Source of the DNA: Chytridium lagenaria | Lineage: Eukaryota > Chytridiomycota > Chytridiomycetes > Chytridiales > Chytridiaceae | Assembly: GCA_025449115.1 (NCBI GenBank) | Contig: JAHLKC010000133.1 | Location: 51,361 to 115,360 of the forward strand | Length of the DNA stretch: 64,000 nucleotides | Direction: 5' to 3' | Part shown: piece by piece, positions 44,198 to 64,000 of the stretch | How positions within the stretch are numbered: position 1 is the stretch's first letter | How the letters are laid out: each line of letters begins with the position of its first letter | Translations under genes and position numbers: made by a program | Notes under the pieces: model-generated | Seen by the model: only the letters and a program-made list of their open reading frames with translations | The model's database searches: none | What the model was told of the DNA's origin: nothing

Positions 44198-44613
44198 ACC
44201 TGAATGCAGGATTTGCGGGAGTCTCTTTCTCTTTTTTCCCCCTTCATTGTATTTGCTGGGCCTTTCTTTTTTATAGCGGATAGGTTCAGGACGTGGTCAG
44301 GATTAGGGATCTATTTTTATTCTGACGGGTTTTCTCCCTTTTTTCCCCTTCTTTTTAGCGAGTTGGTCCTGGTGACGAATGGTAATTTGGATAATAAATG
44401 CCGTTGAGATTTAGTTTGAAGTATAGTTTTGATATGTAGGTTAAAAAGACGCCTAGGGGATAGTTGCGGGTGAAGATCCATTTAGTGAAGAATGAAATGG
44501 AGTATGTTGGGGAGTAGCTAGTTAGGTTAACATGTATAAACATAGCAAAGAGTATGGTTTTTGTAGCGAGTAAGGAGAACAGTGATGGCGAACAATTTAA
44601 TTAAACTGTCTTT
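44198..44613. other. BBP 3' region up to the copia insertion
   Basis: T-rich, no coding signal. It ends with the TCTTT target-site duplication (44609-44613) of the adjoining retrotransposon. Confidence 0.5.
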
Positions 44614-45227
44614 TGTTGGATTTTACGCGTCATGTGTTGCTTGACGCTCACCCCTTTCTGTTTCTAAGATAGACGCGTCGAAACGCGTCGTGGAGATTTA
44701 GTTTAGTCTCCTCTCTCTTTCGTTAAACAGTTTTTCTTTAAAGTTGTTTTTCACTCCTTGATGTTTGTTTTAGTTTGAAGTCTTTTCCTTATCCTGTTTA
44801 TCCGCCAATCACGTTTGTTACGCGTCGCGTAAATTATGTTTTGTTTCCGACGCGTTTGGTTGGTGTGATTCGTTTATTTTCTTGTTTATCTTTGTTTCAT
44901 TTTATTTCCCCTTATCCCTGAAGCCTGTGTGTATATGCGATGTTGATGCCGCATATGGCTTGCTTATTGATGCGGCAGGTTGGCCGCTTTGTTATGGGGA
45001 ATTCATTGGTTCACGCGTCTTGAACGAATCAAAGACGTGATGAAGTGGCGTCTGCCGCTAGGGGAAGCGTTTTAGGCTAATAACGCGTATAAAAGGCAAA
45101 GTGCTTTGTTGAATAAAATTAAGTGAACATTTTATGAGCCCGAAACTCTGTCAAAGTAATAACGCAAAGAATACGTTAAGAGTTTAAAGTTGAAGTTCAA
45201 AGAATTTTGTTTAAGTTCATTTCATCA
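44614..45227 (+). repeat. 5' LTR of copia element
   Basis: 614 bp, TG...CA ends. It contains TATAAAAGG (45086), a likely TATA box for the element's transcript, and seven ACGCGT hexamers. It differs from the 3' LTR by scattered single-base changes, many of them indels. Confidence 0.93.
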
Positions 45228-45228
45228 G

Positions 45229-45240
45229 TGGTAGCACTTC
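45229..45240 (+). other. Primer-binding site, probably initiator tRNA-Met
   Basis: TGGTAGCACTTC starts one base after the 5' LTR. TGGTAGC is the complement of the 3' end (GCUACCA) found in eukaryotic initiator tRNA-Met, the usual primer of copia elements. The tRNA assignment is inference. Confidence 0.65.
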
Positions 45241-45248
45241 TTTCGGTT

Positions 45249-48200
45249 ATGGCTAAAGACTCCGGCGACGAGCGCGAGAACGGCAGCAGCAAGCCTACGC
45301 GTTTTGATGGTCAAGACTTTCACATTTGGAAGCGGCGAATGACCTCGTACCTGAAGGAGAAGAATTTGGGTCCGTCACGTCGAACGGGATCACTGAGTAC
45401 GCAAACGCGGTACCAACCAAAGAAGAAAGAAACTGCGCGCTGAAGAAACGGAGGCCAACGACAAGGCGAAAAGCAAGATCGAAGCACGCGTCACAGACTC
45501 CATCCTACACTTGATTGGAGAAGAGCTTTCGGCCAAAGAAACGTGGGATTGCCTGGTTGCGTCATTTGAACGTAAATCCCAGCCGAACAGGAACGCGTTA
45601 ACGCAAGATGACGCGTCTTAGGATGAAGGAGGGAAATCTCTCAGGGTTTTCGTTGCTGAGCTTTCAACCATCGTCAACCAGCTCAAGGCCGCAGGAGAGG
45701 CCATCAGCAACGAACAACACATTGCACACTTGTTGACAAAGCTCCCAGAATCATACGACGTCGCAGTCGCCAATATTGAAACCGACGACAAGGTCGTGAA
45801 GGACTACAACGCGTTGTAGCAAGACTCCTGGACTGCGAGAAAAGATCAAAGACCGAGAAGACGCGTCAGAAGAGGCAGAGGCATTTTTCACTAAGAAGAC
45901 GCGTAGATACGGCAAAGGAACGAGCACGTCAAACGGAAAGGAAAAGACGCGCTGGTCAGCAAAGTAAAGAATGCTGGAGGTTTCAAATGCTTCAATTGCG
46001 GTAAACCTGGACATTACCGCAGTAACTGTTGGCAGAAGAAGAAGAACGCGTCAAACTCGGATGAATCCGACAACGAAAAGTCTGGCGGTGGTAGGAACCG
46101 TCGACGTGGATGGAGGAGGAAGAAGTTCTCAGGGAAGGACTCAGCAAACACGGTAAACGCGAATCCAATCGCGTTCGTCTCCATCGTCAAAAAGGAAACC
46201 CCAGCAGAGGTTTACGCGTCATCAACAGTAGGAAGAGACAGGCGTTGGATTCTGGACTCGGGAGCAACGCATCATATGACATTCGACAAAGAAGGAATGA
46301 GGAACTACAGGAAGACTGAAAGTCGCGTCAAGACAGCTGAACACGGCAAAGGTATCAAGGTGGAAGGTGTGGGGAGCTGACTCTGGAAGTAAAGGTGGGA
46401 AGGAGCACGAAAACGATCAAACTTAAGAACGTGCTGTATGTACCGGAGATCACGCGTAACCTCATCTCGCTGGGAGCAGCACTCACTCGAGGAGTTCACC
46501 TGGACGCGTCAGATGGAAAATATTGCCTTAAACACGTGGAGTCGAACCACGTCGCAGCAGAATTTACAATGGAGGATAATCTGTTTTTCCTCAGAGAACC
46601 AACAGGAATGAACGCGTCAGTCGGCATAAAGAGCAAGTCTCTGAACGACGCGTTAACGTGGCATAGGAGGATGGGACACCTCTCGATGAAAGCAGTGAAG
46701 ATGCTTGAGCAATCAGCCGATGGATTACGTGTCACGGAAGAAAACACCGACGCCCTGTGCAAAGGATGCATAGAAGGGAAAACGACTCGGTCATCACACC
46801 CAGAGAAGTCGTTTGGTTCAAAGAAGAAGCTAGAACGAGTGCATGTGGACTTGGCGGGACCAATGAAGAAGAAAAGCGTAGGAGGGTCACGCTACTTCAT
46901 GGTTATAGTAGACGCGTCGACAGGCTACGTGCAAACATACTTCCTGAAGAAAAAGTCGGACGCGATCAAAGTACATTAAGTTGTACAAGGCGGAGGCGGA
47001 AACCATTACGGTGTTTAAGATCGATGAGATCGACTACTCGGAGCGTGATCCGGCGGATTTGAAAGGAAAACAACCGTCTGGAACTCAGGGAGATTGTAGC
47101 CGACAATGGAGGAGAATTCAAGAACGAAAAGCTGGAAACTTGGTGCTTGGACGAACGCGTCAAGCTCACCTTCACTATGCCTTACACGCCAGAACAAAAA
47201 CGGGATTGCAGAACGTATGAATAGGACGTTGATCGAAAAGGCAAAATGCATGCTTTATGACGCAAACCTGGACGACAAATTCTGGGCCGAAGGAATCTCA
47301 ACAGCAGCTTACCTCCATAACCGGTCTCCACGAAAGAATGGAATATCTCCTCTTGAGGCATTCACTGGAAGAAAACCAAACCTGAAACGCGTCAGGATTT
47401 TTGGATGCCCTTGCTACGCTCACGTGCCAAAGCAGAAAAGGAAGAAGATGGATAAGAACACCAGGAAGTGTATCTTCTTAGGATACGAGGCAATGGGATA
47501 CAGGATGTACGACCCAGTCGCGAAAAGGATCGTCCGCAGCAAGACCGTGATCTTTGACGAGATGAACACAGGGATTTCCGACGATCAGGACCTGGAACAT
47601 CTCAACATGGAAAGCAAACAAACCACTACTTGAGAAAATCGGCATCAACACCAATGATGAAGATAGCTCGGATTCAGAAGAAGATCCGAATGACGAAAAA
47701 CGCGAAAGTGACGCGTCAACTCAGTTGGAGAGTGAACCGGATGGGGGGAGCGATGAAGAAAACGAAGAAGAAGCGTCAGAAGAATTTGTTGACGCGCCAT
47801 TGACTCCGGCAAAAACCCCACTAAGAAGATCGACGCGTATACCAAAGACACCAACTCCAACAGAAGAAGAAACGCGTCGATATCCACCCAGGGAACGGAA
47901 GAAGCCTACTCCCTGGTTTCAATCGTTAGCAGGAAAGGGCAGCAAACTCCCAGTTAAGCCTGCAGCTCATGCAGCGGCATCAGAAGACGTTGAGGACGAC
48001 CTCACCGACCCCATCTCAGTAGAAGACGCGCTAGGACGCGAAGACGGCACCGAATGGATGAAGGCACTTGAAGACGAGTACAATTCGTTGATGGAGAACA
48101 ATACCTGGCGACTTGTGATGAGACCAAAAGGAAAGAAGATCATTAAGTCAGGGTGGGTGCTGAGGTACAAAAGGAAGGAGAATGGGGATGTAGAAAGAAG

Positions 48201-49603
48201 AAAGGCGCGTTTTGTTGCGAAGGGATACTCTCAAGAAGAAGGGATCGACTATCACGAAACCTACGCGCCAGTAATGAAGAACTCGACGTACAGGGCCATC
48301 CTGGCGGTAATGGCTCACGAGAAGATGGTTATAAGGCAATTCGACGTGAAGACGGCATTTTTGAACGGCATTTTGAAGGACGTCGAAATATACATTGAGC
48401 AGCCAGAGGGATTTGTGGAGTTAGGAAAGGAAGGATGGGTGTGTTTGTTAATTAAGACACTGTATGGGTTGAAGCAGTCGCCATTAGGATGGAACGAGGT
48501 CTTGGACGCGTTCCTCATAGAGTTGGGTTTTACGCGTGCTACATCAGACGCGTGCCTTTACTTTAAACGACACGGTGATCGACTTACACTACTCGTGGTC
48601 TACGTGGACGACATAATTTTCGGCAGCAAGGACGTTGAAGAAGCCGAGAAATTTGAACGCGACTTGAAAGCGCGTTTTTCAGCCACGAGTGAACACGACC
48701 CTAGATACGCGGTTGGTACGCAAATTCGCTACTCGCAAGAAGAAGGCGTCATGAGAATTAAGCAAGCAGCTTATATTGACACAATGATAAGAAGCTTGAA
48801 GTACCCGGAAACCACGTGAAGAAACTCCCTATACGACCTGGTACGCGTCTTGGCAGGATTGATGACGACGCATCACCTTTAGAAACCGTTGACGGCTTGG
48901 CATACCGAACGGTGGTTGGATCACTCATGTACGCGATGGTGAACTCACGACCAGATATCGCGTTCACAGTTGGAATGTTGGCACGCTATCAAGCGAGGCC
49001 TGGTGAAGAGCACTGGGAATGTGCTCGAGACTTGTTGGGTTACCTGAGGAAGACGCGTGATTTGGGAATCAAGTATGAACGCGTCGGCGACAAACTTCGC
49101 TTGGAAGGATTCAGCGATGCTGACCTTGGGAATGACCCTGATGAGAGGAAATCAATAAGTGGGTTCGTGATTTTGTTAAATGGGGGAGCCGTTTTGTGGG
49201 GAGCCAGGAAGCAAGCGTCAGTTGCGGTCTCGAGTGCAGAAGCCGAGTATGTCGCGCTTAGTGAAGCATCGTCTGAGCTTATCTGGCTTAAGCAACTCCT
49301 GGAGGAGATAGGTTACGCGTTTGACGATCCTCCACGACTCTACTGTGATAACACGGCTGCTGAGGCGATTTCGAAGAACCCGGTCATCAGCTCACAACAC
49401 GGCACATTGATTTACGGTTCCACGCGGTCAGGGATCGCGTTGCCAAAAGACTCCTAACGGTGGAGCACATAGGAACCAAGGAGCAGCCAGCAGACATGCT
49501 CACGAAAGGACTAGCTCATGCGGACCTAGACAGGTGCCGCAGCAGAGTGGGAATGGAATTCGTTATTGATGAAGACCGTTGGTCAAGTAACCATAACGCG
49601 TAA
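45249..49603 (+). pseudogene. Copia gag-pol polyprotein, frame-disrupted
   Basis: Domains in order: a gag region from ATG 45249 (MAKDSGDEREN, then FDGQDFHIWKRRM); a CCHC zinc knuckle near 45990 (CFNCGKPGHYRSNC); the protease active-site region near 46245 (WILDSGATHHMT); a GAG-preintegrase segment with WHRRMGHLS (46660) and the HHCC-type integrase zinc region. The integrase core follows (VDLAGPM, 46848), then FGCPCYAHVPK (47400), reverse transcriptase with FDVKTAFLNG (48340) and YVDDIIFG (48602), and RNase H with AEAEYVALSEAS (49240). Frame changes occur near 45360, 45600, 45830, 46130, 46375, 46975, 47170, 47630, 48819 and 49440, and stop codons interrupt gag. No intact version is given here. 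The protein would have driven reverse transcription and integration of the element. Confidence 0.88.
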
Positions 49604-49613
49604 AGGGGGAGAA
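49601..49613 (+). other. Polypurine tract
   Basis: AAAGGGGGAGAA lies directly before the TG of the 3' LTR, as expected for the plus-strand primer site. It overlaps the stop codon of the pol frame. Confidence 0.85.
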
Positions 49614-50222
49614 TGTTGGATTTTACGCGTCATGTGTTGCTTGACGCTCACCCCTTTCCTTTTCTAAGATAGACGCGTCGGAAACGCGTCGTGGAGATTT
49701 AGTTTAGTCTCCTCTCTCTTTCGTTAAACAGTTTTCCTTTAAGTTGTTTTTCCACTCCTTGATGTTTGTTTTAGTTTGAAGTCTTTTCGTTATCCTGTTT
49801 ATCCGCCAATCACGTTTGTTACGCGTCTCGTAAATTATGTTTTGTTTCCGACGCGTTTGGTTGGTTGATTCGTTTATTTTCTTGTTTATCTTTGTTTCAT
49901 TTTATTTCCCCTTATCCCTGAAGCCTGTTGTATATGCGATGTTGATGCCGCATATGGCTTGCTTATTGATGCGCAGGTTGGCCGCTTTGTTATGGGGAAT
50001 TCATTGGTTCACGCGTCTTGAACGAATCAAAGCGTGATGAAGTGGCGTCTGCCGCTAGGGGAAGCGTTTTAGGCTAATAACGCGTATAAAAGGCAAAGTG
50101 CTTTGTTGAATAAATTAAGTGAACATTTTATGAGCCCCGAAACTCTGTCAAAAGTAATAACGAAAGAATACGTTAAGAGTTTAAGTTGAAGTTCAAAGAA
50201 TTTGTTTAAGTTCATTTCATCA
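49614..50222 (+). repeat. 3' LTR of copia element
   Basis: 609 bp, aligned end to end with the 5' LTR at roughly 97% identity by eye. It is followed by the second copy of the TCTTT target duplication. Confidence 0.93.
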
Positions 50223-51524
50223 TCTTTTCCTCCTTATCGATTGACCGCAAAAGCCCGAATGGTCAATCGTTTCATGGCGTTCGCCGTTTCACTCGGATAT
50301 GCGCCTTTCGTCATGATAGTTGCCGTCAAGATAATCGCCTTATGCAAGCTACATTGAAGTTCAAGCCAGAATGGATGGTTTTAACGTGTCGGAGTTTGAC
50401 CTTTTGTCTTGGATTTCCAGCTTATCTTTTTTCTTATACATGAGTTGTATAGCTTTTATTCTTTAATGCGGTTACTGAGGAATGCTGTCATTCTCCAGAA
50501 AATTATCTTCATGCTGGGGTATATAAAACAGTGCGCGAACTATGTATTAAATGAATTGGCTGAAGGTCATCACTATTCTACTTGGGTTATTGCTGGTGGT
50601 AACCTTATTCAATTGACGACGCGCATTTTTAGATTGCGGTCGTTCATTTGTGATGATGACTGGAAGCGAGGAAGGGGTTTAAACTATTTGTTTGATGAGC
50701 TGCATGCATCTCACCAAACTTGACCATGGGGCGTCAAGTTATGATATTAAAAGAATCTCAAATTAACTTAGGAATAAGGTATCAACATTAGTATATCCTG
50801 CATAAACACATAAGGAGCAGGCAAGATTTGTGGTATAATCAAAACCATTGGAACAATTTAATTACTCCAATGCAAAAATACGGACAATTCAAGAATAATA
50901 AGAAACAAACGAACTTAATATTGCTGGTCGCTACAGCTTTAAGATTCAATATATGCAAAGTACTTTTGACGTGAGCATGTTCTTGATGAGCTTCGTGAAT
51001 GGGTAAGAGATAACGGTATTCTTTTTATTGTAGTTGAAAATATGATTGCAGGATGATGCATTGCCATGCCCCAGCGAATTCTAAAACCGCCAGTAGCGGT
51101 CGTGATTGTTGGTAATGAGGAAATCTAACGGAACAAATCATATGGCTATCAATTCCAAACGCCGTTTAGTCGTGTTTTGCTTTCCTCGTTATCCACTTTA
51201 GTTGGTATCCATTGACCTTTTCATTTACTATGACGGAAGGTGAGAGGTTGCAGAGTTTTGTTTTCGAGTCCATTTTTTATTTTTTTTTTCTTTTTGGGCC
51301 ACCCTTGTCCGATACATGAAACTTGCAAAGGTTACACACATGCACTACTGGATGAAACAACGCACAGCAAACTAAAGTGTCCACATCATCACACTATCAC
51401 TCTCACCACAAACATCATCCATTCACACCTTCCAACATCGTTCCTTTCATCAACCAGCACTTTAATTACATAAGAAACGGATACTCCTTTCTCAAGTCCT
51501 TAGAGTGTGGGCCACTCGACGATC
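50223..51524. other. Intergenic between copia element and kinesin gene
   Basis: No coding region recognised. The last ~200 bp are CA/CT-rich (51360-51470), which would fit the kinesin promoter and leader. A short open frame at 50409-50723 shows no motif. Confidence 0.45.
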
Positions 51525-54500
51525 ATGGCTTCATTGCAGCCTAATAGAACACAACCACCATCACCATTCGCACCACCACCACCATCATCGCCATCACCAT
51601 CATCATCATCCACCGCCGTCACTGTCGCACTCCGCATCCGACCATATCTGATAGAGATAGAATCGCAAACGCCAAAGGATCGAGAGAGGTCATTACCCCT
51701 GCAGACGGCGACCAACGACAGATCATTGTCGATGAAGGAAACGTTTCACCATGATCGAGTTTTTGCAGGCCGAGCTTCGCAGCGGTCAGTATATACGGCA
51801 TGCGTAAGAAGCTTGGTGGAAAAATTTATAACTGGGTATAATGTAACTGTTATGGCTTACGGACAGGTAAGGCTGTGCTTTCCGCTTTGTTTGTTTGTTT
51901 GTTTTTTTTTCTCCCAAGATTTGAATATGCGTCTTCGCGAACTCTTTTTTTTTTTTATCTTTTCTCTGTACTGCGCAACCACCTGTATTCTGCTCTATTC
52001 TCACGTTTTGCTTGTGTATTAGACTGGAAGCGGGAAAACATATACTATGGGAAGCTCCAGGGAATACGTCTCGCTTAATCAAACATCTAGCGTTGACGAT
52101 AACAGGGTAAGTTTTTCTTTTCCCTTTTTGATATTTTTAAGGCTTACGTTGTGAAAAGGGATCATTGCTCGGTCCATCAAAGACGTGTTTTCTCTTCTGA
52201 AAGAGTCCTCAAAGTCATACTCTGTTTCAGCTACATTCTTAGAGGTTTACAACGAGGAACTTACAGATCTTCTTTCGACACAACCTGCATCTTCAAGGAC
52301 CCCTATCATTATTCAAGAAACGGGATCTGGAACTGCAATGTCGGGATGTAATGTTGTGAAGCTCAACTCCTCTGACGATGCCTTGAGGTGAATTTTCCCG
52401 CTTTTATATCAACATCCAGTAACCTATCTTCAGGGTCTTGCTACAGGGTCTTGATAGTCGCCAACCTCCGTTACCGATATGAACATCTCATCATCCCGTT
52501 CCACGCCATCTTCACACTCACCCTAGTCCAGGATATACAATCTTCTCGCATCACATCTCGCTTTCATTTTGTTGATCTTGCTGGATCGGAACGGATGCAG
52601 CGCACAGGATCTGTTAGCGCGAGACAGCGGGAAGGAATTCATATTAATTCAGGGCTTTTGGCTTTGGGGAATGTTATCTCGGCGTTGGCGGATGAGTCTG
52701 GAAGGGTCACACATGTGCCATATCGGGACTCAAAGCTTACCAGAGTTTTACAGGATAGTCTTGGAGGGAATAGGTGAGTTAAAATTTTTCATTTTGTCGT
52801 ATTTTTATCTTGTTCTCCGTTTTATTCTAATTATTAATCGAGTTTATAGTAATACGCTGATGATTGCTTGTATATCGCCGACGGAAAATGATCTTTCTGA
52901 GACTCTCAACACCCTCAAGTATGCCAATCGCGCGCGCAAGGTCCGGAACGTAGTTTCCATAAATAAGGATGTTGTGAATGAGGTCACGGAGTTGAAGGAA
53001 CTCGTCCAGAGATTAAAAGAGGAGATGGCCGCTATGAAAGCCCAGCAGGGCTCTGGAATTGCGCCATTAGGTGAGAAGATTTGCGGCAAATATTGTGTTT
53101 CTCTTTGTTGCCCTTCTATTTGATTTGTTAATAGCCTTTTTCGTATTGTGCCATTACAATCGCGTCATAAGTATCTTCGATTGAGATCGATACACATCGA
53201 AAGGAGAATCAAGCCCTCCGTCGACAGCTGGAGGAACGAAGCGAAGAAATCCTTCGACTCCGTGCTCATCGAGATTATTTATCAAACGAGGTGAATACCC
53301 TAACACTTAGTATTTTTTTTAAATTCACGTGCCTTCTAAAACCCTTTCCAAAATCTCTAAAAAGCACTCTTTTTGTTTATCTGTTTTATATATTTTATAG
53401 TAATTGACTTCACTTTTGTTCCAGCTTGCTTTTGTTCAATCCGAATCCACCCTTCGCATCCGCAACGCCTCCCCTGAACCGTCCGACACAATGTCCGACA
53501 TCTTTTCCGACACCAAATCCGTCACAAGTGTGTCTACGTTTGACAACGAATCCATTGCTGGTTCCTCATCCTCCACCTCCCGCATCCCTGTTCTTGGCCA
53601 AAAACGTTCAACGCGCCGTCTTTCGCTCATACAACGACCCCCCAATGAGGCACTTTTCACTGTTGTGGAGGATCAGGATCGTTTGATTAGACGGTTGAGG
53701 TTTGATTTAAGAGAGGTGACGGCGGCGGCGAATGATTACTTAAGGGAGGTAGAGGCAGCTGAGGGACGTGCCAGGGAGGAGAGGGAGAAGACGGAGAAGG
53801 CGGAAGACAAGTGTGGAAAGCTGGAGAAGCAGCTAAAAGAAGTTGAAAAGATTGGGATGGAGCTGAGGAGTATATCGCTGGATTAGAGGCCCAGCTTGCG
53901 CGGAGAGATGCTTTGGCGGCACAAGTAAGCACCTTAGTTCTCATATCACCCCGGTCTAACCCTGCTTTTATTGCTATTTGAAAGGTCGAAAGCCTTGAAG
54001 CCGACCTCGAGGACGCTCGCGCCGAAGAAGCCCGCCGTGAAGTCATTCTCGCCGACCTTGAACGTCGTCTTGCTGAAGCGGGCGATTCCATGGAAACTAT
54101 CTCCCGTATGACGCAATTGGAAGCCGACGTGGCTCGATTCCGAGAAGCGTGGGAAACAGCTCAAGCCCGTGTTGATGAGCTTACGAATGAAAAAGAACGG
54201 GGGATGGCCACACCGCCAATTTCTGCACCATCTTCACCGCCTCGTGGGAGGGGGTTGGTTGCTATTCCTGAGGAGGAGCCTCAGAAGGCGGAGGCGGACG
54301 TCAAAATGAGGATTGTGGACGACGAGGATGAGAATGCTGAGGACGGTAAAGCGATTCCTTCTGTGACGGTCGCAGAAAGAATCACCTCACCTATAGTGGA
54401 TTTGGTGGACCTGGAGAATGCTAATAAGGCCGCGGCCGTTGAACCACTATCCCCGGCTATACCCATGATCACGACCAGGTCATTACGGTCAAGCTTAATG

Positions 54501-57349
54501 TCTCCGACTTCTCCGAGCGCAACATCAGTAAACCGTTCGTCACGATCCTCCTTCGATGGCTTACCTGATGGCGCCTCTGTTATGTATGCGATACAGCTTT
54601 CTTTTAAATACCTGTTGCTGACACCAACTCCATTAGGTCACTCTGGAAAACGTTAGCAAAGGCCGAAGATCAAAACAAGAAGCAGTCGGAGGAGATTAAA
54701 CGTCTCGAGAATCGTATCGTGGAACTTCTCGCAAAATGTTCAATTCTTGAAAGCGATGCCCTGGCCATATCCGCAAGTCACGCTGCCGAGGCTTCCGCTC
54801 TGATTGACCGACTGAAGGGATCCGAAGAAACCGTCAACAAGCAATCGGAGAAACTCAAAGGCCTTGAAGACCGCATAACTGAGGTCCTTGGGCAGTGCTC
54901 TACGCTTGAGTCTCATCTCAAAGCAGTAAGAGACGAAAAGGCCCTTTTGGAGACTGCCAAGCAAAGTCTTTCCACACGCCTTGATGAGGCTCTTGCAACC
55001 GTCGATGAAGGACGAGCACACGCTGTCGAGGTTGCCAATCTGGGCAATCGTCTCAAGGGATCTGAAGCGACCATCAGTAAGCAATCGGAAGAAATTAAAC
55101 GGCTTGAAGATCGTATCGCTGAGATCCTTGGACAGTGCTCTAGATTGGAGGCTACTCTCAACGCAGCAAGAGACGAAAAATTGCTTTTGGAGACTTCAAA
55201 ACAAAGTCTTTCTGAACGTCTTGACGAGGCTGTTGCAATCGCGGATGAAGTACGCGCAAGTCACGCTGTCGAGATTGGCAATGCTGAAGAGACTATCAGT
55301 AAGAAATCGGAGGAAATCAAATGCTTGGAAGATCGTCTCGTTGAAATTCTGGGACAGTGCTCTACATTGGAGGGTAATGTCAACGCAGCAAGAGACGAAA
55401 AGGTGCTCTTGGAGACTGAAAAGAAAAAACTTTCTGAACGTCTTGACGAGGCTCTTGCAATCGTGGATGAAGTACGCGCAAGTCACGCTGCCGAGGCTGC
55501 CAATACAACTGACCGTCTCAAGGGATCTGAAGAGACCATCAGTATTCAATTGGAAGAAATTAAACGCCTTGAAGATCGTATCGCTGAAATCCTCGGGCGG
55601 TGCTCTGCATTAGAGGCTAATGCCAACGCAGCAAGAGACGAAAAGGTGCTTTTGGAAGCTGAGAAGAAAAAACTCTCTGAACGTCTTGACGAGGCTCTTG
55701 CAATGGTGGATGAAGTACGCGCAAGTCACGCTGCCGAGGCTGCCAATACAACTCACCGTCTCAAAGGATCTGAAGAGACCATCAGTAAGCAATCGGAAGA
55801 AATTAAATGCCTTGAAGATCGTATCGCTGAAATCCTTGGAGAGTGTTCTACTTTGGAAGCTCATCTCAACGCAGCAAGAGACGAAAAGGCCCTTTTGGCG
55901 ACTGCCAAACAAAGTCTTTCTGAACGCCTTGATGAGACTCTTGCAACCGTCGATGAAGGACGAGCACACGCTGTCGAGGTTGCCAATTTGGCTAATCGTC
56001 TCAAGGGATCTGAAGAGACCATCAGTAAGCAATCGGAAGAAATTAAATGCCTTGAAGATCGTATCGCTGAAATCCTCGTACAGTCCTCTTCATTGGAGGC
56101 TAATCTCAGCGCAGTAAGAGACGAAAAGGTGCTTTTGGAGACTTCAAAAGAAAATCTTTCTACACGTCTTGATGAGGCTCTTGCACACATGGATGAAGTA
56201 CGCGCAAGCCACACTGCAGAGGTTACCGATCTATCTGGTCGACTTAAGGCTTCCGAGGAGAGCCTCAGCAAGCTAACGGAGGAATTGAAACGCCTTGAAG
56301 ACCGTATCGCTGAGATCCTCGTACAGTGCTCTTCTTTGGAGGCTAATCTCAATGCAGCAACTGACGAAAAGGTGCTTTTGGAGACTTCAAAGCAAAATAT
56401 TTCTAAACGCTTTGACGAAGCTCTTGCAAACATGGATGGTGTACGTGCACGTCACACTGCCGAGGCTACCGATCTAGCGGACCGACTCAAGGATTCCGAG
56501 GAGACCATCAACAAGCTAACGGAGGAAATTAAACGTCGTGAAAACCGTATTGCCGAGATTTTTGGACAGTGCTCCACGTTGGAGGCCCAACTCAAGGTAG
56601 CGAAAGGCGAAAATGCCTTGTTGGAGACTACAAAGCAAAGCCTTTCGCAAAGGCTTGATGAGGTTCTTGCAACCGTGGATGAAGGACGCGGAAGTCCCGC
56701 TGCCGATCTAACGGATCGACTCAAGGGATGCGAAGAAATTATCAATAAGCAGACGGAGGAAATTAAGCGTCTAGAAGGCCGTATTGCTGAGATCCCCGTA
56801 CAGCGCTCTTCGTTAGAGGTTCAAGTTAATCCAGCAAGACAGGAAGAGGTAATTGTGGAGACTGAACCCGATCAAGGTGCTGCTGACGGCATCCGACATC
56901 GTCGATCCCGTGGAACACCACGACAATCCGAAGTAGCAGCATTGAAAACGGTACATCACGAAGACGAACAACCCGGCGATTACTTCCTCCCCTCTGTGTT
57001 CTTCAACCGACCTTGTTCCCCCGGTCAACTCCCCTCTGAATCGCGTTCTCCCTCCCGGATCCTTGTTACGCGTACATGCACGTCGAAGAAATGCGACAAG
57101 ATCCGTCATCAACTTGAGAGTGAGATAGAAAATTTAAATGGACGGATCGCTAGGATGGTGAAACGGGAGGAGGAGTTGAAGAGGGAGGTAGGGAGGGGAC
57201 AGGGGGATGTAAATGAGGCTTTGAGGAGGTTGATGGAAGCGGAAAGGGAGAGGGAGAGGGTTGAGATGAGGGTTAAGGAAATGGAGAGGGGAATTGGAAA
57301 AAGGAAGAAGAAGATGCCGTGGGAGTTTTGTTTGAAGGATGAGGATTGA
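51525..57349 (+). CDS. Kinesin-4-like motor with long repetitive coiled-coil tail
   Basis: ATG 51525 opens a Pro/Ser-rich leader, then [11 protein letters not shown]. The P-loop [14 protein letters not shown] is formed across an intron (51867-52022). Next are [15 protein letters not shown] (52230), the switch I region (near 52490), [16 protein letters not shown] (switch II, 52567), [18 protein letters not shown] (52648), [19 protein letters not shown] (52717) and, after an intron, [20 protein letters not shown]. The [10 protein letters not shown] and DSLGGN wording fits kinesin-4 (KIF4/KIF21). Kinesin-4 motors act on microtubule plus ends and spindles or in cilia; a zoosporic host leaves both open. 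A disordered Ser/Thr segment (53480-53650) and coiled coils follow, then an 876-codon uninterrupted frame (54719-57349) with ~80-residue repeats and a final basic helix ending [13 protein letters not shown]. Single missing bases near 52463 and 52502 break the motor frame in homopolymers. Another break lies near 53870. Confidence 0.85.
54737..56850 (+). repeat. Tandem coding repeat, unit about 240 bp (80 residues), about nine copies
   Basis: The unit reads [18 protein letters not shown], then [15 protein letters not shown], a [11 protein letters not shown] variant, [17 protein letters not shown] and [11 protein letters not shown]. Unit starts fall near 54737 (partial), 54898, 55138, 55360, 55600, 55846, 56088, 56328, 56568 and 56802. 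The fourth unit is shorter, lacking part of the DRLKGS region. DNA identity between middle units is high, implying recent expansion or gene conversion. Confidence 0.88.
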
Positions 57350-60300
57350 AGTGGAGGCGTTTCGAAGACTTGTTCTTCTAAAATTTACCAAAATATTTAT
57401 TACATGGGCTTTTCCTTTTATAATAGCTTTTTTTCTTTTCTTTCTTCTTTCATTCTTCTTATCTTTCTTCTTTCATTCTTCTTATCTATCTATTTTTGTT
57501 CATTTATATTTTCTATTCATGCTATTCCTTATTTCACGTTTATCTCTATGATTTTTGTCATTCAATTTTCTTTTCTATGAGCTCATTTTACATTTCCCGC
57601 ATTCGTCGACTTGTATTTAGAGATAGATTATATGGATGTTGACGTGTGTGATGTAAAATTATTCAGAATCAAAGTTGGCCACAAAACTGGCTCACTTTTG
57701 TTACACAGTTTGACTGGCCTCATTTTCTTGACACAAAGCAGATGAGGTGAGTGTCGCAGGAGGCCGTCCATTCCTTAAGATGTCGGATTATCATATCCAA
57801 ACTTCTTATTTTAAGATATCCCCATTCAGTTGTGATTTTCCTGCGTCCTTTTCCTTCACATTCCCCTTATCTAATTTTGTCACGATTTTTTCTTCTTTTG
57901 TTCATCTTCTTATCCTTAATTTACGTGTGTGAAACTACGGCCTCCTACCACGTATCCGAAGATATGGTAGGAGTTTCGATAGGACTAGTACCTTCTAATG
58001 GTACATAGAACGTCTACACATAAATAAATAAAGTTTAGTGTACTTGACAAAGATAAACAATGTCCAGAGCATGAAAGAATGGAGCTCAATGATGATCAGC
58101 GGGAATAAAAGAAAGGTAAAGGAAAGGGAAAGAGGGATACAAGCACGGGACCAGAAATAAGAGATACTTAGCTGCGGTATTTTCAAGTAAGTCTTCCTAC
58201 AACCATTTTTGCCCATTCCGTCAATCATCGCGGCGGTAAAGGCGTTTCCTTAGCGTTCCCGGTGCTAAGGGCAATCTCTAAACCCGAAATGATGATGACG
58301 AGGGGAAGCTGCGTTGATACTCTATCTCACCGGCCGTGAGCCGAAGGGGGTTTGCTGATCAGGGCTTTGCAGCAGCCGATCACCCAACGCCACGGAACAT
58401 ACGCGGTGTGTCCGAGGACCTGACGGAGGCACCTTCTGGTAAGACTACTTAATACTAACCTTGGTGCCAGAGGTAGGCGCGTGTGTATATGAGAAGACCT
58501 GGACCTGGACCTGGACAGGACTGGGGACAGGTTTTGGGATGGGACAACTTCTCTATCTTTATTTGTAAGACCCTCTCGCTCAACATAAACATAAACAAAG
58601 AATAAATAAACATATAAACAATGGGTATAAATGAGCGAGGGGATAAAGAAGAGATATATACAAAATAAAACAAAGTCCCAACATACAAAAGGGCGGTAAA
58701 CAGGGAAAACCCGACGGCGACATATATACAATGCCGTGGGAAAACCTGAATACCGTATAAGGTAAGTAAAGACTTGCCAAGACGAATCCTAAAGACTTCG
58801 TTAGTGTACAAGCAGGAGGGGGTAAAAGGAAAAGCCGTACATATAGCATCTTGGAAATATGCTTACGGTGAAATATCATTTTATTGAATATTTAACACGT
58901 GTAATTGTTTTTGCACATTTTTGCGAAAAAAAGAACAACGGAAACGCGGTGGCCCATTTTTAATATTTTGCAGGCTGGAAGCCAATGCTACTTCTTTTTT
59001 TTATCGCTTCACAAGTCCTTGCAAAAAGTTAGATTTACTAATATTGCCAACGAGCTAAACCGGGCTGGTTCCTCCGCTTTGTTCGCGGTTTCAATGTGTA
59101 TACTGAAATACTGACGGTGTCGTGGCCACAGGATTATGTCACATTATGACCTTGATGAGGATGCATGGCTGCAGAATGGTTTCTCACAGGAATTGCAGTG
59201 AAATACGTCAACCCCGTCCCCCCCCCTCACCGCCCCGACCAGTAATTGTATAATTCACTATATATTTATTTTACTAAATATTAATTTCTACTATATATAA
59301 CAAAATCTACTAATACCATTTGTGAACACTTTGTTGGCCCCCATTAGAGCCTGTTTAGAACGTGAATGCCTCATCCAGTCTTCCACCATTGCTTCAGCCT
59401 CTGAACGACGATATCTCCTGGATTATCATAGGATGGTTGCATTCTCAAGATCCTTGACGCTATGTAGCACCAATCAAGATTGGCGTGCGGGTGCTTGGGT
59501 AAGCGCGCCGCCAGATGAAACTACACCCAACCAAGATAAAATTCTAAGAGGGCTTGAGCCATGGATATAAATCCCTCTGGTATGATTCCCTTGAGTGTTG
59601 AGGTAGTGTAAGAACGTCCATATTGTCTTTGTATTATAATGCCAGCTAAATTGCCTAGTGGTGGGAATGCGGCATAAAAAGAGCCTTAGATGGACAAGAA
59701 AGAGACACACACATGTTAAGATGGCTTACTGCTGCAATTACGAGGCCTAGAACATTACCTTGGAGCAGGATAAACTCCCTCTTTGACGACGCTTCTACTC
59801 TGGTGGTTTGAATCTACGCCTGAGTCCTTCTTCCTTCCTTTTTACTTCGTTTTAATGATTAGAACAAAATGACAGCAACTTAAATCCCCGCTGTCACTAA
59901 AGGAAGAATTGGGCTTGACTCTTGACTAAGGAGTACATTCTTGTTTGTCTTGTCACTTAATAGGTGGTTCTCTACCTCTGTATGCTGGGGCTCAGCAGAT
60001 TGTGCCAAACAGAGAACTTCACAGAGTGATTTGCTACACTGCACGCTTGTGTGTTGGCCAGGGTGCCTTTAACCTTTATGGCTGGGTCGTTGCATTTGCA
60101 GGAGCCTGGCCTCGCATCTGCATCAGTTTTTCAGGTAGGCAAAAATGTGAAGTTATGAAGCAACTCCACCAAATAGGCACAAGTTTGTAAGTACTTTTAG
60201 CTCTTAGGCTGCTGGTGAAATACCTCACGTCCCATTACCAGTTGTCTCTCCCCTGCTTGTCTACCCTGCATGGCTACGTGAGCCCATTTCTTATGCGCGT

Positions 60301-60867
60301 AGAGACCTATTATGTATGTGGAGTTGACGACAGCCTTGTGTTTTTGTTGTTTATGTTGTGTATGTATTTGCCATTATATATCCATAATTGTATTTTCTAA
60401 ATGAGAGTTTGAGCAAAACTTGAACTGATTTATAACACCCATAAAAACCTTGTTCTAGGCTAGCCTTGTGCTGCGCATTCACTACCCTCTTTTTAAATAT
60501 GGTGTTTGAGTATCCTGTGAGGCTTTCAAGGATTGGACACATCCGGGCTTGGGGGGGGAGGCCAACGCTAGGTTAAAGTTGAGTCTCAGTAAGGGTAAAC
60601 CAGGGTTATTACACCTTCATGGAACTATTTCTTACAAAGACCTGCTCCTGCTTTCTTTACTACAGTATGGGCTGTCTACTTGTCCGCACCAGGGAGTGAG
60701 ACCAGAGAGGAGTAGGAACAAGTTGTAAAGGCTTACGCATGATTGTAAAGGTCCAGGATACTCTTTGGAGTGGGATAGACTCTCTCCTCGTAGCCCTTTC
60801 TAGGTACCTAGATGAGTGTGATCCCCACCTAGGTTCTTTTTTTAATATTCTTTGGTAACTTGGAATA
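57350..60867. other. Gene-poor subtelomeric DNA
   Basis: T-rich 3' region of the kinesin gene (57400-57560), then sequence without a supported protein gene. A compact structured segment at 58240-58440 is listed separately. Open frames at 59322-59570 and 59945-60190 show no motif I recognise; they may belong to the copia remnant that follows. Confidence 0.5.
58240..58440. ncRNA. Candidate structured RNA, family not identified, strand unknown
   Basis: Four consecutive hairpins with perfect short stems lie in 190 bases. CCTTAGC (58248-58254) pairs with GCTAAGG (58264-58270). CGGC (58331-58334) pairs with GCCG (58340-58343). GATC and GGCT (58357-58366) pair with AGCC and GATC (58374-58381). GGTG and TCCG (58405-58414) pair with CGGA and CACC (58424-58433). 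GC content is higher than the flanks and there is no coding frame. ATGATGATGA at about 58289 resembles a snoRNA box C, but a matching box D and terminal stem were not convincing. It was not matched to U1-U6, U3, SRP, RNase P/MRP or a telomerase template. Chance folding cannot be excluded. Confidence 0.3.
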
Positions 60868-61182
60868 ATTTCATGGTCTACTATGGAAGCTAAGTATCAA
60901 GCACTATCCAAACATGCCCAGGTAATCTGGATCTCCAAACTCACCCACAAACTCCGAGTTCCCCAAGAGCCTGTTGTCATCCACGGAGACAACAATTGAG
61001 CCATCGGGCTTGCCAAGAATCCTGAATTTCATGAGCGCACCAAACACATTCTTCGCTCAGTCCATAATATCCGCTAGGCAATTGCCAACAAGTATGTAAC
61101 GATCCAACACGTCATCACCCACGACAACATTGCTGACATACTCACCAAGGCTCTCCCCCGCCTTGTGTTTGAAAAACATTGA
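60868..61182 (+). pseudogene. Copia RNase H remnant
   Basis: Reading from 60868, the frame gives ISWSTMEAKYQALSKHAQ, then VIHGDNN, a TGA, AIGLAKNPEFHERTKHI and HNIR, a TAG, AIANKYVTIQHVITHD and NIADILTKALPR. This is the C-terminal RNase H of a Ty1/copia polyprotein with two internal stops. It is unrelated at the DNA level to the element at 44614. The rest of pol is not recognisable upstream. Confidence 0.85.
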
Positions 61183-61253
61183 CACTCTCACGGAATATGA
61201 CGTGCTGCGGAACTCTACGTTTAAGCCCTTGCCTTATTTTGTTTGAGGGAGAC

Positions 61254-61549
61254 TGTTGAGATTCAGTCTCTTAAGTCTCAAACTTTGAGTATCACGCACC
61301 AAAAATCAAAGTGACGGTACTCCATGTGTTAAAGGCATGGAGAGTCTGTAGCAGTGGTTAAGAAGAGGAGGGCTTTTGGGATTACAAGATGGAACACATT
61401 TAGACGCGTCAGCCTCTGTACATCCCACCGGCCCGGACTTTGCCTACCTGTGCAAAGGCACATTGCCTTCTCTTCTTCTTTCTGTATCAACTGACACATT
61501 CTATCTATAAACGCATAGGTCTCCATTGAGACTGTCATTCTTTTTTAAT
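61254..61549 (+). repeat. Putative LTR of the decayed copia element
   Basis: A purine-rich GAGGGAGAC directly precedes TGTTGAGATTCAGTCTC at 61254, the expected polypurine tract followed by an LTR start. The likely right end is ...GAGACTGTCA near 61549. No second LTR was found, so the limits are tentative. Confidence 0.5.
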
Positions 61550-62240
61550 ATTTCCCTCCTTTATTTGCCTCTTTACATAATGACGTTAGAGCAAAAATGA
61601 CGTACAGCACATCATAATCCTTGCCTCAGCAAAAGAGGAGCTAAAGCCAAGATTCCAGCCTGGAATACCTACAGGATGGATCACGGCACCGCATAGTGCC
61701 GTCATGGTCAAGGATTGAATAATGGAAGAAGGACAGAAACACACGGAATGCAGGTCCAGTTGGGGGAGGCAAGATCCAAGTCTCATGCTGCGCTCAGCGC
61801 CGTGGACCTCTGGGATCAGCCTCTTCATCACCTATAAAGATTGTTGCATCCTTCATGATACTGATGTGTTACACTGTTGGAAAAATATGGGAACACTAAT
61901 TTCGCTTTTAAAATGATTCCTTTGCAAAAACACAAAGAGAAGTAAAACACAAAGAGAAGTGTGTGTATCTTCAAAATATAATAATTGTGAGTTTATTTGT
62001 TAATAGTATGTGTCAAATAAAAGAGGAGCGTTTGCAAGTGCAAAAGATAATGGTTCCACCCGGGAGATGAGTCCTTCTTATATACACACTTTCCCCTTCA
62101 AAGTTGCTATGGGCTTCTTCAAGGGAATCGTACCGCCACTTTGGCTTTTAAAGAATACATGAAGTAATTCATAGAAGGAGAGAAGTAGTGATAGACCTTA
62201 TTAGTTTACAACACCTTTTAAATACCCTAATCCCTGTTTA
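61550..62240. other. Subtelomeric, no gene recognised
   Basis: No coding or RNA signal. A short duplication AACACAAAGAGAAGT occurs twice near 61930-61960. Confidence 0.4.
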
Positions 62241-62261
62241 ACATTGGTGGTAATGGGTCAC

Positions 62262-62670
62262 CTAAAATCCCACCTTTATTTGTCAAACTATATGAGCTAA
62301 CCGGAAACTCATTTTTTCTTCTCATTAAATCCCTTTGAATTAAGAATAGTAAACTCCCCTTAAAAACACTCATTTTAAATGTCATTAAGCTAACTGAAAG
62401 TAGGTAGTATATTAATCGCAAAAACCCCCACCTTATTAGTTAAATATATGAGCTAAACAAAAACTGTTTTTTCTATCTCATTTAAAAAGGCAGTTACAAG
62501 AAATCCCCTTGACCAAAAAGATGTAGATTCACTTCAAAAACACTCATGTTACATGTCATTATGCTAGCTGAAAGGAGGTAGCATAGGGATTGGGAAAAAC
62601 CCCCACCTTAATTAGTTAAACTATATACGCTAAACTAAAACTCTTTTTTCATTTCATTAAAAAGGCTTGA
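62262..62670. repeat. Subtelomeric tandem repeat, about 170 bp, three copies
   Basis: CCCACCTTTATTTGTCAAACTATATGAGCTAA-type blocks start near 62268, 62426 and 62599. Each is followed by an AAACT...TTTTTTC block and a CATT(T)AAA block. The linker ACACTCAT.TTA.ATGTCATTA.GCTA.CTGAAAG.AGGTAG occurs between copies near 62367 and 62539. The array lies 1-1.4 kb from the telomere. Confidence 0.8.
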
Positions 62671-62807
62671 ACCCATAGTGAAAAAACTCATTACATACAA
62701 GCAAAGTTGATAAGGAAAAATATATTTTTTTAACCCAACCCATACAACAAACAACATATAATTCACTTTTTTTCCCCATTGACTTTGCCCTATTTTCTTT
62801 CAACCTT

Positions 62808-63649
62808 TTAGCCTTCACAGCCTTTTCCTCTTCCCGCTCCCTTTTTTCTCTCAGCTCTACTAAGTTGGAGCTTATTGCTATTAATTAACTTCTCAACCCT
62901 CCCATTTGATCCTGCCTCACCCTCCACAGCCAAGATCCTAACTTCTCTCAAAACTCCCTGAAGCTCTTGAAATAAGTCTGGGTGGTCTTGTGGAAGTCTA
63001 CACTCCATTCCCTTCTCATCACTCACAACACCCAAAAAAGAATGGTAGGCCCCCAGTCTTCCCCAAACATCATGGAGCTTAGTCCCAATATCCCCTCCAG
63101 CATCCTGATACAACACCCAAACTAGCTGCCAAAGTTGCAACCAAGCAGCAGGTATCCCCTTTGCTTTCCCCAAAGGAATCACAACAAAGTTATGGAAGAG
63201 CCAGTCCAGATAATGACCATCTCTGAAATAACATGAAACACAGGAAAAAAAGGGAAAGGGACATGAAAAAAAACTGCATGAGCAAAAGCATAAGGCACAA
63301 AAACAACATCTCCTTCCTGCACAAGCAATGCATAACCTAAACCATTCTTTCCCCTCAATAATCTAGCACAACCTCTAATACAGTCAAGAGGGGTCTTAGC
63401 CAATCTGAGAAATCTGACCCTGTTCAAATCATCCCTTTCCCTCACATTAAAAAAAACCCACAACTTTGCAGTGTTTGAAGAGGATTGAGGGTGGGCATTA
63501 AAAGTGCATATGATGGTGGAAGGATGATTGTGAAGAGGAGTGAAAGAAGGAACCTGTTGTTCTCCTAGATCAGGTTTTGCAAAAATGGGCTGAGTGGGCA
63601 CATAAGGGGATATAGCATTAAGGTCATTGTTTGAAAATATGGGGAGAGG
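62808..63649 (-). CDS. Subtelomeric gene, 5'-truncated at the telomere; possible cupin/JmjC-like fragment
   Basis: Two minus-strand exons joined by a GT-AG type intron (acceptor ...TTATTTCAG near 63220). The first contains KPDLGEQQVPSFTPLHNHPS, KLWVFFNVRERDD and GYALLVQEGDVVFVPYAFAH. The wording of EGDVVFVP...AHAV resembles a metal-binding cupin or JmjC strand, a weak resemblance. The second continues DGHYLDWLFHNFVVIPLGK and ends in a basic tail at 62808. No ATG lies at the beginning: the frame stays open through 63649 and into the telomere repeats, where it would read Pro-Asn repeats. The 5' end therefore appears to be missing, or starts in an exon lost with the chromosome end. Confidence 0.5.
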
Positions 63650-63942
63650 GTTAGGGTTAGGGTTAGGGTTAGGGTTTAGGGTTAAGGTTAGGCTAGTGCT
63701 AAAGGGTTAAGGTTAAGGTTAGGGTTAAGGTTAGGGTTAGGTTAGGGTTAGGTTAGGGTTAGGGTTAGGGTAGGGTTGGGTTGGGTTAGGGTGGTTAGGG
63801 TTAGGGTTAGGTTAGGTTGTTAGGGTTTTTAGGGTTAGGTTAGGGTTAGGGTTAGGTTAGGGTTAGGGTTAGGGTTAGGGTTAGGTTAGGGTTAGGGTTA
63901 GGGTTAGGGTTAGGGTTAGGGTTAGGGTTAGGGTTAGGGTTA

Positions 63943-63979
<37 letters not shown>

Positions 63980-64000
63980 GGTTAGGGTTAGGGTTTAGGG
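63645..64000 (+). repeat. Telomere, (TTAGGG)n with variants, right chromosome end
   Basis: GGGTTAGGGTTAGGG repeats occupy about 355 bp and run to the last base, with the G-rich strand 5'->3' toward the end as at a true right terminus. Variants TTTAGGG, TTAAGG, TTAGG and TTGGG are interspersed, more densely in the inner half. The organism thus uses the TTAGGG repeat. Confidence 0.97.

Follow-up and report, generated by a model that had tools for sequence, protein, structure and literature searches.

Strong signs of selection on the DNA word ACGCGT in LTRs and coding sequence of a Copia clade in Chytridium lagenaria

Why would a retrotransposon in a chytrid genome carry one six-base word some forty times over, in its LTRs and its coding sequence alike? 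The question is raised by a 64,000-nucleotide stretch of Chytridium lagenaria DNA (the window), in which the original prediction counted about 41 ACGCGT in a 5.6-kb Copia element, with one to two expected by chance and about a dozen in the other 58 kb. We found 41 starts within 44614-50222, seven in each LTR (14 together) and 27 between them, and 14 in the remaining 58.4 kb. Dinucleotide-preserving shuffles of the whole element held 1.77 on average and 7 at most (1000 shuffles), in line with the predicted chance level.

The element is a Ty1/Copia LTR retrotransposon, since its integrase precedes its reverse transcriptase (RVT_2), which is the Copia order. The ends given earlier, 44614 and 50222, are exact: the LTR termini are TG...CA, and a 5-bp duplication, TCTTT, flanks both ends. 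The features of the element are as follows.

44614..45227, + strand: 5′ LTR, 614 bp, with the TSD TCTTT at 44609-44613 on its left
44625, 44673, 44683, 44820, 44850, 45013 and 45083: starts of the seven ACGCGT in the 5′ LTR
45083..45095, + strand: last ACGCGT of U3, whose final T is shared with a TATAAAAG box; TATA from 45088
45250..46377, + strand: gag and the beginning of pol, the frame being broken into pieces; zinc knuckle at about 45985-46029, Pol_BBD from 46246
46377..47630, + strand: frame pieces with the end of Pol_BBD, gag_pre-integrase and the integrase region including SH3_retrovirus; the integrase core piece lies outside the Pfam scan
47725..48816, + strand: reverse transcriptase piece (RVT_2, 3.4e-56)
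48816..49600, + strand: frame pieces at the RNase H position, assigned by position
45297..49601, no strand: the 27 ACGCGT between the LTRs, 26 of them entirely within the analysed coding pieces
49614..50222, + strand: 3′ LTR, 609 bp, with seven ACGCGT and TCTTT at 50223-50227 on its right

Pfam analysis of six frame pieces detected the zinc knuckle, Pol_BBD, gag_pre-integrase, SH3_retrovirus (5.3e-28) and RVT_2; for 45250..46377 the scan covered the piece 45907-46377. The pieces at 48816..49600 are presumably the RNase H, a name that we take from position and general knowledge, and a Pfam scan of two of them gave no match. The TATAAAAG box is probably the TATA box, and U3 would end just after it. 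An alignment of the two LTRs of the window copy (598 columns) has 5 mismatches and 12 gap letters, and this excess of gaps may reflect indel errors of the assembly. The coding frame is broken; because gaps dominate the LTR-LTR differences as well, assembly error may contribute to the frame breaks.

The excess of ACGCGT was evaluated separately in LTR and coding DNA. The first-LTR stretch 44614-45206 contains 7 ACGCGT, compared to 0.17 in dinucleotide shuffles (maximum 2; 1000 shuffles), and U3 (44614-45114, 501 bp) contains 7 compared to 0.18 expected. All seven are located upstream of the predicted transcription start, and the last overlaps the TATA box. The coding pieces (4398 nt, taking in about 70 bases ahead of the first ATG; the short gaps between pieces and the site at 49596 fall outside the count) contain 26. 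Codon-preserving shuffles, the control proposed with the original prediction, gave a mean of 4.83 (sd 1.92, maximum 12; 2000 shuffles) and did not reproduce this number. The proteins of the window copy permit ACGCGT at 39 places, of which 26 are realised, with 8/13, 14/17 and 4/9 in the three reading frames; the next-best of the 64 palindromes in the same count reached 1/4. When all hexamer classes were scanned in the window copy pooled with two of the relatives described below (A, A′ and B L061), ACGCGT ranked first (65 vs 10.8, z 18), and ranks 2-5 were all classes overlapping it.

These numbers bear on whether the word could have accumulated with no selection at all, by mutation bias, by codon-pair bias or as the legacy of a single unusual ancestor. 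There is a mild elevation in the background: window DNA outside the element contains ACGCGT at about 2.5-fold the dinucleotide expectation (12 vs 4.8 in 1-44613; 2 vs 1.3 in 50223-64000), and GCAGCA, CAGCAA and GAAGAA also exceed codon shuffles. Their z is about 6, however, compared to 18 for ACGCGT, and a codon-usage or codon-pair artefact is ruled out by the occurrence in three frames, the LTRs and the shuffles. Z-DNA or general CpG richness was also ruled out (GCGC 10 vs 16.7 in A; GCGCGC 5 vs 3.6), as was a tandem-repeat origin of the sites, the long repeats found being the LTRs. Regular spacing was rejected: the coefficient of variation of the gaps is 0.85, and a helical phase is not clearly present. 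The whole assembly contains 11314 ACGCGT in 41.93 Mb (0.27 per kb), compared to 7.3 per kb in the element; the reversed control word occurs 6586 times, and these elements supply part of the difference.

We searched the genome (a 41.9-Mb assembly of 356 contigs; all comparisons are within this one genome) for related reverse transcriptases. At least 118 matches were obtained, and 112 of 653 candidates were scored, giving 30 loci. In the tree of these loci, whose bootstrap stopped short of full settling, one clade with support of 100/99 unites 24 loci rich in ACGCGT (1.9 to 7.1 per kb), while the remaining six carry 0.5 to 1.0 per kb. We refer to the window copy as A, to L010 (82.5% DNA identity) as A′, and to a family at 67.5% identity as B. 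The realised share of permitted places is 22/28 in A′ and ranges over 22 B loci from 8/24 (L008) to 12/20 (L027), whereas the six outgroup Copia loci show 1/4, 0/12, 0/4, 1/15, 2/12 and 1/9. Codon shuffles (300 each) gave the same division: 22 sites vs 2.8 in A′, 17 vs 3.3 in B L061, 13 vs 2.9 in L018 and 12 vs 2.5 in L023, with no comparable excess in the outgroup loci L022 (0 vs 0.4), L021 (1 vs 0.4), L028 (1 vs 0.6) and L029 (2 vs 0.5). For all loci other than the window copy, ORFs were picked by a mechanical rule (minimum length 80 aa), and stray frames may be among them. In family B, the LTR contains 4 ACGCGT in 502 bp, compared to 0.14 expected, and a single 18-base match is all that the LTRs of A and B have in common. 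Thus, the sister copies, which the original prediction had named as a check, keep the hexamers and their excess, and in this clade the site load is near the maximum that the proteins allow.

Several other observations were made in these searches. L036 (G000 C14:289170-289767) has an LTR with 87% similarity to the LTR of the window copy; among the matches listed, no family A reverse transcriptase lies nearby, and L036 may be a solo LTR or belong to a non-autonomous copy. Plants were among the sources of the best 120 of 6756 matches in the reverse transcriptase protein search, and a scan of viral_contigs found no relative. The host protein at 18182-19084 of the window had two matches among 1601 candidates, both in chytrids, as expected of a chytrid host: one in Dinochytrium kinnereticum (53%), the other in Phlyctochytrium planicorne (46%).

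We compared the positions of the sites among copies. Among the 26 coding sites of A, 7 are common to B L061, 3 lie where B permits the word but does not have it, 15 lie where B encodes other amino acids, and 1 was unaligned; private ACGCGT sites are also present in B and in A′. Because the sites are largely at different places in A, A′ and B, the load appears to have been raised or renewed separately in related lineages, although individual gains are unpolarised. This turnover rules out a relic of one odd ancestor. At the same time, existing sites are conserved better than comparable hexamers. Between A and A′, ACGCGT is intact in the partner at 0.69 (n = 32), compared to 0.31 for CpG-free, 0.38 for other two-CpG and 0.60 for other CGCG-holding hexamers. 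Between A or A′ and 12 of the 22 B loci, the value is 0.52 (n = 434), compared to 0.16, 0.09 and 0.32, respectively, and within B it is 0.94, compared to 0.90, 0.92 and 0.93. In 15 distinct LTR copies, the seven LTR sites are intact in 61/86 cases, other hexamers in 2993/6525 (0.46) and other CpG hexamers in 536/1182.

Single-base differences at ACGCGT within B are mostly CpG transitions (247/310; the copy pairs overlap and the changes are unpolarised), and transitions were found at 0.025 of the CpGs inside ACGCGT compared to 0.039 of other CpGs. CpG transitions usually represent decay. If they do so here, they destroy ACGCGT, so a mutational origin of the word is unlikely, and we rejected mutation bias as its maker. 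Together with the outgroup Copia loci of the same genome, which have no excess, these results make an origin with no selection very unlikely.

The places that permit the word are themselves in excess, which suggests that the proteins were affected. The proteins of A permit ACGCGT at 39 places compared to 14.9 in amino-acid shuffles (sd 3.6, maximum 30; 1000 each), and those of A′ at 28 compared to 11.1 (maximum 24; 1000). The excess is smaller in B: 29 vs 16.4 in L061, where the shuffle maximum of 29 equals the count, and 22 vs 12.0 in L018 and 23 vs 13.1 in L023, where some shuffles exceed it (maxima 24 and 26). The outgroup loci gave 12 vs 9.5 (L022), 4 vs 8.4 (L021), 15 vs 12.0 (L028) and 12 vs 10.5 (L029). 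Individual sites show the kind of change involved. The site at 48548 encodes DAC in A and A′ and DPC in B and both compared outgroups; the site at 47155 encodes ERV where others read EGI, KGI or HGI; the site at 49315 encodes YAF where others read YSF or YTF. Conserved columns were changed at sites more often than elsewhere in A (3/10 vs 30/368, p 0.048 or 0.023, uncorrected) and in A′ (4/15 vs 18/282, p 0.018, uncorrected, A and A′ not being independent). The test gave p 0.29 or 0.45 in B (1/5 vs 22/340) and p 0.52 for A against B alone (17/47 vs 309/994), and among ten control hexamers GAAGAA reached 4/14 and AAGGAA 3/10. The column test is weak and no more than suggestive; with the permitted-place excess, we consider it likely that pressure for ACGCGT moulded the encoded proteins toward permitting the word.

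What reads the word? The words that nearly match it were ranked in pooled A, A′ and B L061. ACGCGA stands at 2.6, ACGCGC at 1.9 and ACGCGG at 1.5, whereas changes in the core stay at or below 1.1, except ACGAGT (1.6; 8 vs 4.9). The elevation of ACGCGA extends to its complement TCGCGT, and the pattern is that expected of a protein binding CGCG on double-stranded DNA. The same ranking bears on two further explanations. Self-pairing of ACGCGU words for dimerisation or packing of genomic RNA would fit the palindrome, and all sites lie within the transcribed unit if the RNA runs LTR to LTR. However, the G-U wobble words are not raised in A, A′ and B L061 (ATGCGT 0, 0 and 1 vs 1.9, 1.0 and 1.1; ACGTGT 1, 0 and 2 vs 0.8, 0.7 and 1.3), and TCGCGT is raised though it is no better pairing partner. 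We rejected this explanation as highly improbable. Alternatively, a host methyltransferase might act at ACGCGT to the profit of the element, as the palindrome has two CpGs and the host has C5-methylase-family places. This methylation-target idea, part of the original prediction, finds little support and is most unlikely: graded tolerance of near-cognates is more like a binding protein, and nothing points directly to modification. The broader claim, of selection or some DNA-level process working on the hexamer, was borne out by the codon-shuffle excess, the shifted positions in relatives, the extra conservation and the near-cognates raised in both orientations. We consider selection on ACGCGT as a DNA word nearly certain.

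As the binding protein we favour a factor of the host SBF/MBF type, because of the CGCG-binder pattern, an Mbp1-like host domain with EKIQGGYGKYQGTW, the literature on CGCG and MCB, and the U3 site overlapping the TATA box. KilA-N domains occur at four places in the host genome, two of them near twins. The twin regions, L064 and L065 (G000 C12:267887 and C254:23780), are on different contigs and are perhaps uncollapsed haplotypes; a further KilA-N locus is at C35:207826. One host domain matches the Mbp1 structures 4ux5 (3e-20) and 1bm8 (3.2e-18) and keeps the wing EKIQGGYGKYQGTW. According to PMC4862756, two wing glutamines of the Magnaporthe homologue recognise CGCG; the same source describes that chytrids can hold both E2F and SBF and states that the chytrid motifs are unknown. 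The ancestral element was likely MCB-like according to the relevant part of PMC5448814.

The original prediction had identified ACGCGT as the MluI cell-cycle box of fungal MBF. The Mbp1-like KilA-N domain with its wing glutamines and the seven U3 sites make this reading plausible, but the upstream regions read for two S-phase genes, PCNA and RNR2, contain no ACGCGT; a sample of two genes settles the matter in neither direction. Upstream of PCNA there is one TTTTCGCGTAC, which is complementary to a ACGCGAAAA-like site, and upstream of RNR2 there are a TCGCGT, some 1.4 kb away from the match, and a nearer GCGCGT. The upstream piece of MCM proved to be coding, so PCNA and RNR2 make up the S-phase set, and an ATP-cone search for RNR1 found nothing. 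The identity of the reader as host SBF/MBF with an Mbp1-like KilA-N domain, and the cell-cycle timing, are thus predictions from sequence.

We put at about even the chance that selection has favoured binding of an SBF/MBF-type host factor by this Copia clade, serving its transcription and probably also keeping chromatin open along its body. The U3 array beside the TATA box would drive transcription around G1/S, which would coincide with plentiful dNTPs for reverse transcription. Since few sites suffice for a promoter, those in the body call for a second reason. The same factor may use them as an enhancer inside the element or as a nucleosome-clearing platform that holds each copy open. The benefit would act in cis on each copy, since single sites would otherwise hardly be kept. 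Element-wide selection suggests that coating of the body itself pays, whether by enhancing from within, by clearing nucleosomes or by protecting the element from silencing. The fullest form of this reading, in which the hexamer fills two thirds of its permitted places, the proteins have shifted, and a host cell-cycle factor covers every copy along its body and keeps it open, is tentative and somewhat short of even odds.

The argument from cis benefit also bears on titration, proposed earlier for MBF, by which copies would soak up MBF or another host factor and so alter the cell cycle or defence. Two ACGCGT within 36 bp, at most 30 bases apart, occur at 882 places in the genome, compared to 75 for the reversed control word; many of those among the matches listed are repeats of a few units. 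However, a gain common to all copies would barely reward the single copy gaining a site, and on this argument we consider titration very improbable. Some other repeats also carry the word. L075 (G000 C3:196800-203500) belongs to another kind of repeat, flanked by direct terminal repeats of about 484 bp, and its ORF has a stretch that looks endonuclease-like by eye; each terminal repeat has a ACGCGTAAATATACGCGT pair (2 vs 0.04 by shuffles), and four of its six sites are terminal, with few inside. Tandem ACGCGT-holding units of about 31 and 29 bases occur at G000 C3:67642-67753 and C3:601056-602341, respectively.

The spread of sites over the whole element, body included, could also be read as an anti-silencing platform, on which a CGCG-binding protein other than SBF/MBF wards off DNA methylation or heterochromatin in the manner of VANC. 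The host has C5-methylase-family places (14 pieces on 7 contigs), and the predominance of CpG transitions among the B differences, with fewer at ACGCGT than at other CpGs, would fit such protection. On the other hand, the six scanned pieces of the broken window copy contain no extra DNA-binding domain, the ranking of near-cognates agrees with the core known for MBF, and VANC motifs, as characterised in part of PMC5735166, are mainly in non-coding tandem repeats, where these sites are not. We regard anti-silencing as unlikely, yet worth serious consideration beside the SBF/MBF-type reading.

If the SBF/MBF-type reading is true, the tolerance series ACGCGT > ACGCGA > ACGCGC is a natural read-out of chytrid SBF/MBF specificity. 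For the early fungal G1/S factor, whose site may be MCB-like or SCB-like as discussed in PMC5448814, it would predict ACGCGT first and ACGCGA second, and this ranking bears on what chytrid SBF binds, a point raised in PMC4862756. The clade also shows cleanly how a DNA motif and the constraints on a protein compete. Within the open-licence PMC literature, our searches yielded no case in which selection on a DNA word has filled coding sequence with it and probably shaped the proteins.

Transposons are known to borrow host-factor sites in their promoters. The Drosophila gypsy insulator is a retrotransposon array of sites for a host protein, in one untranslated cluster; the chytrid Copia would likewise carry an array of sites for a host protein, but its load is element-wide. 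In fungi, the MFS1 promoter of Zymoseptoria tritici contains a Copia LTR insert, and the account of it in PMC5656749 notes four ACGCGT 13-15 bp apart, which by our reading of those passages lie within the LTR. The likeness is a Copia LTR with MluI cell-cycle boxes; the difference is that MFS1 has a short promoter cluster, with nothing on coding sequence in those passages. Fungal MCB sites, read by Mbp1 in SBF/MBF, share the hexamer and its CGCG core, and the host has an Mbp1-like KilA-N domain, but in the relevant parts of PMC4862756 and PMC5448814 they are known as promoter sites of G1/S genes, and the motifs of chytrids are described as unknown. For sites over the whole body, the closest parallel would be the VANC motifs on VANDAL elements of Arabidopsis, where, as described in part of PMC5735166, a short motif is likewise dense in one transposon group and absent from relatives. 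Those motifs are mainly in non-coding tandem repeats and VANDAL encodes the reader of its own motif, whereas the chytrid Copia sites are scattered, with 26 in coding pieces, and the six scanned pieces of the broken copy contain no reader.
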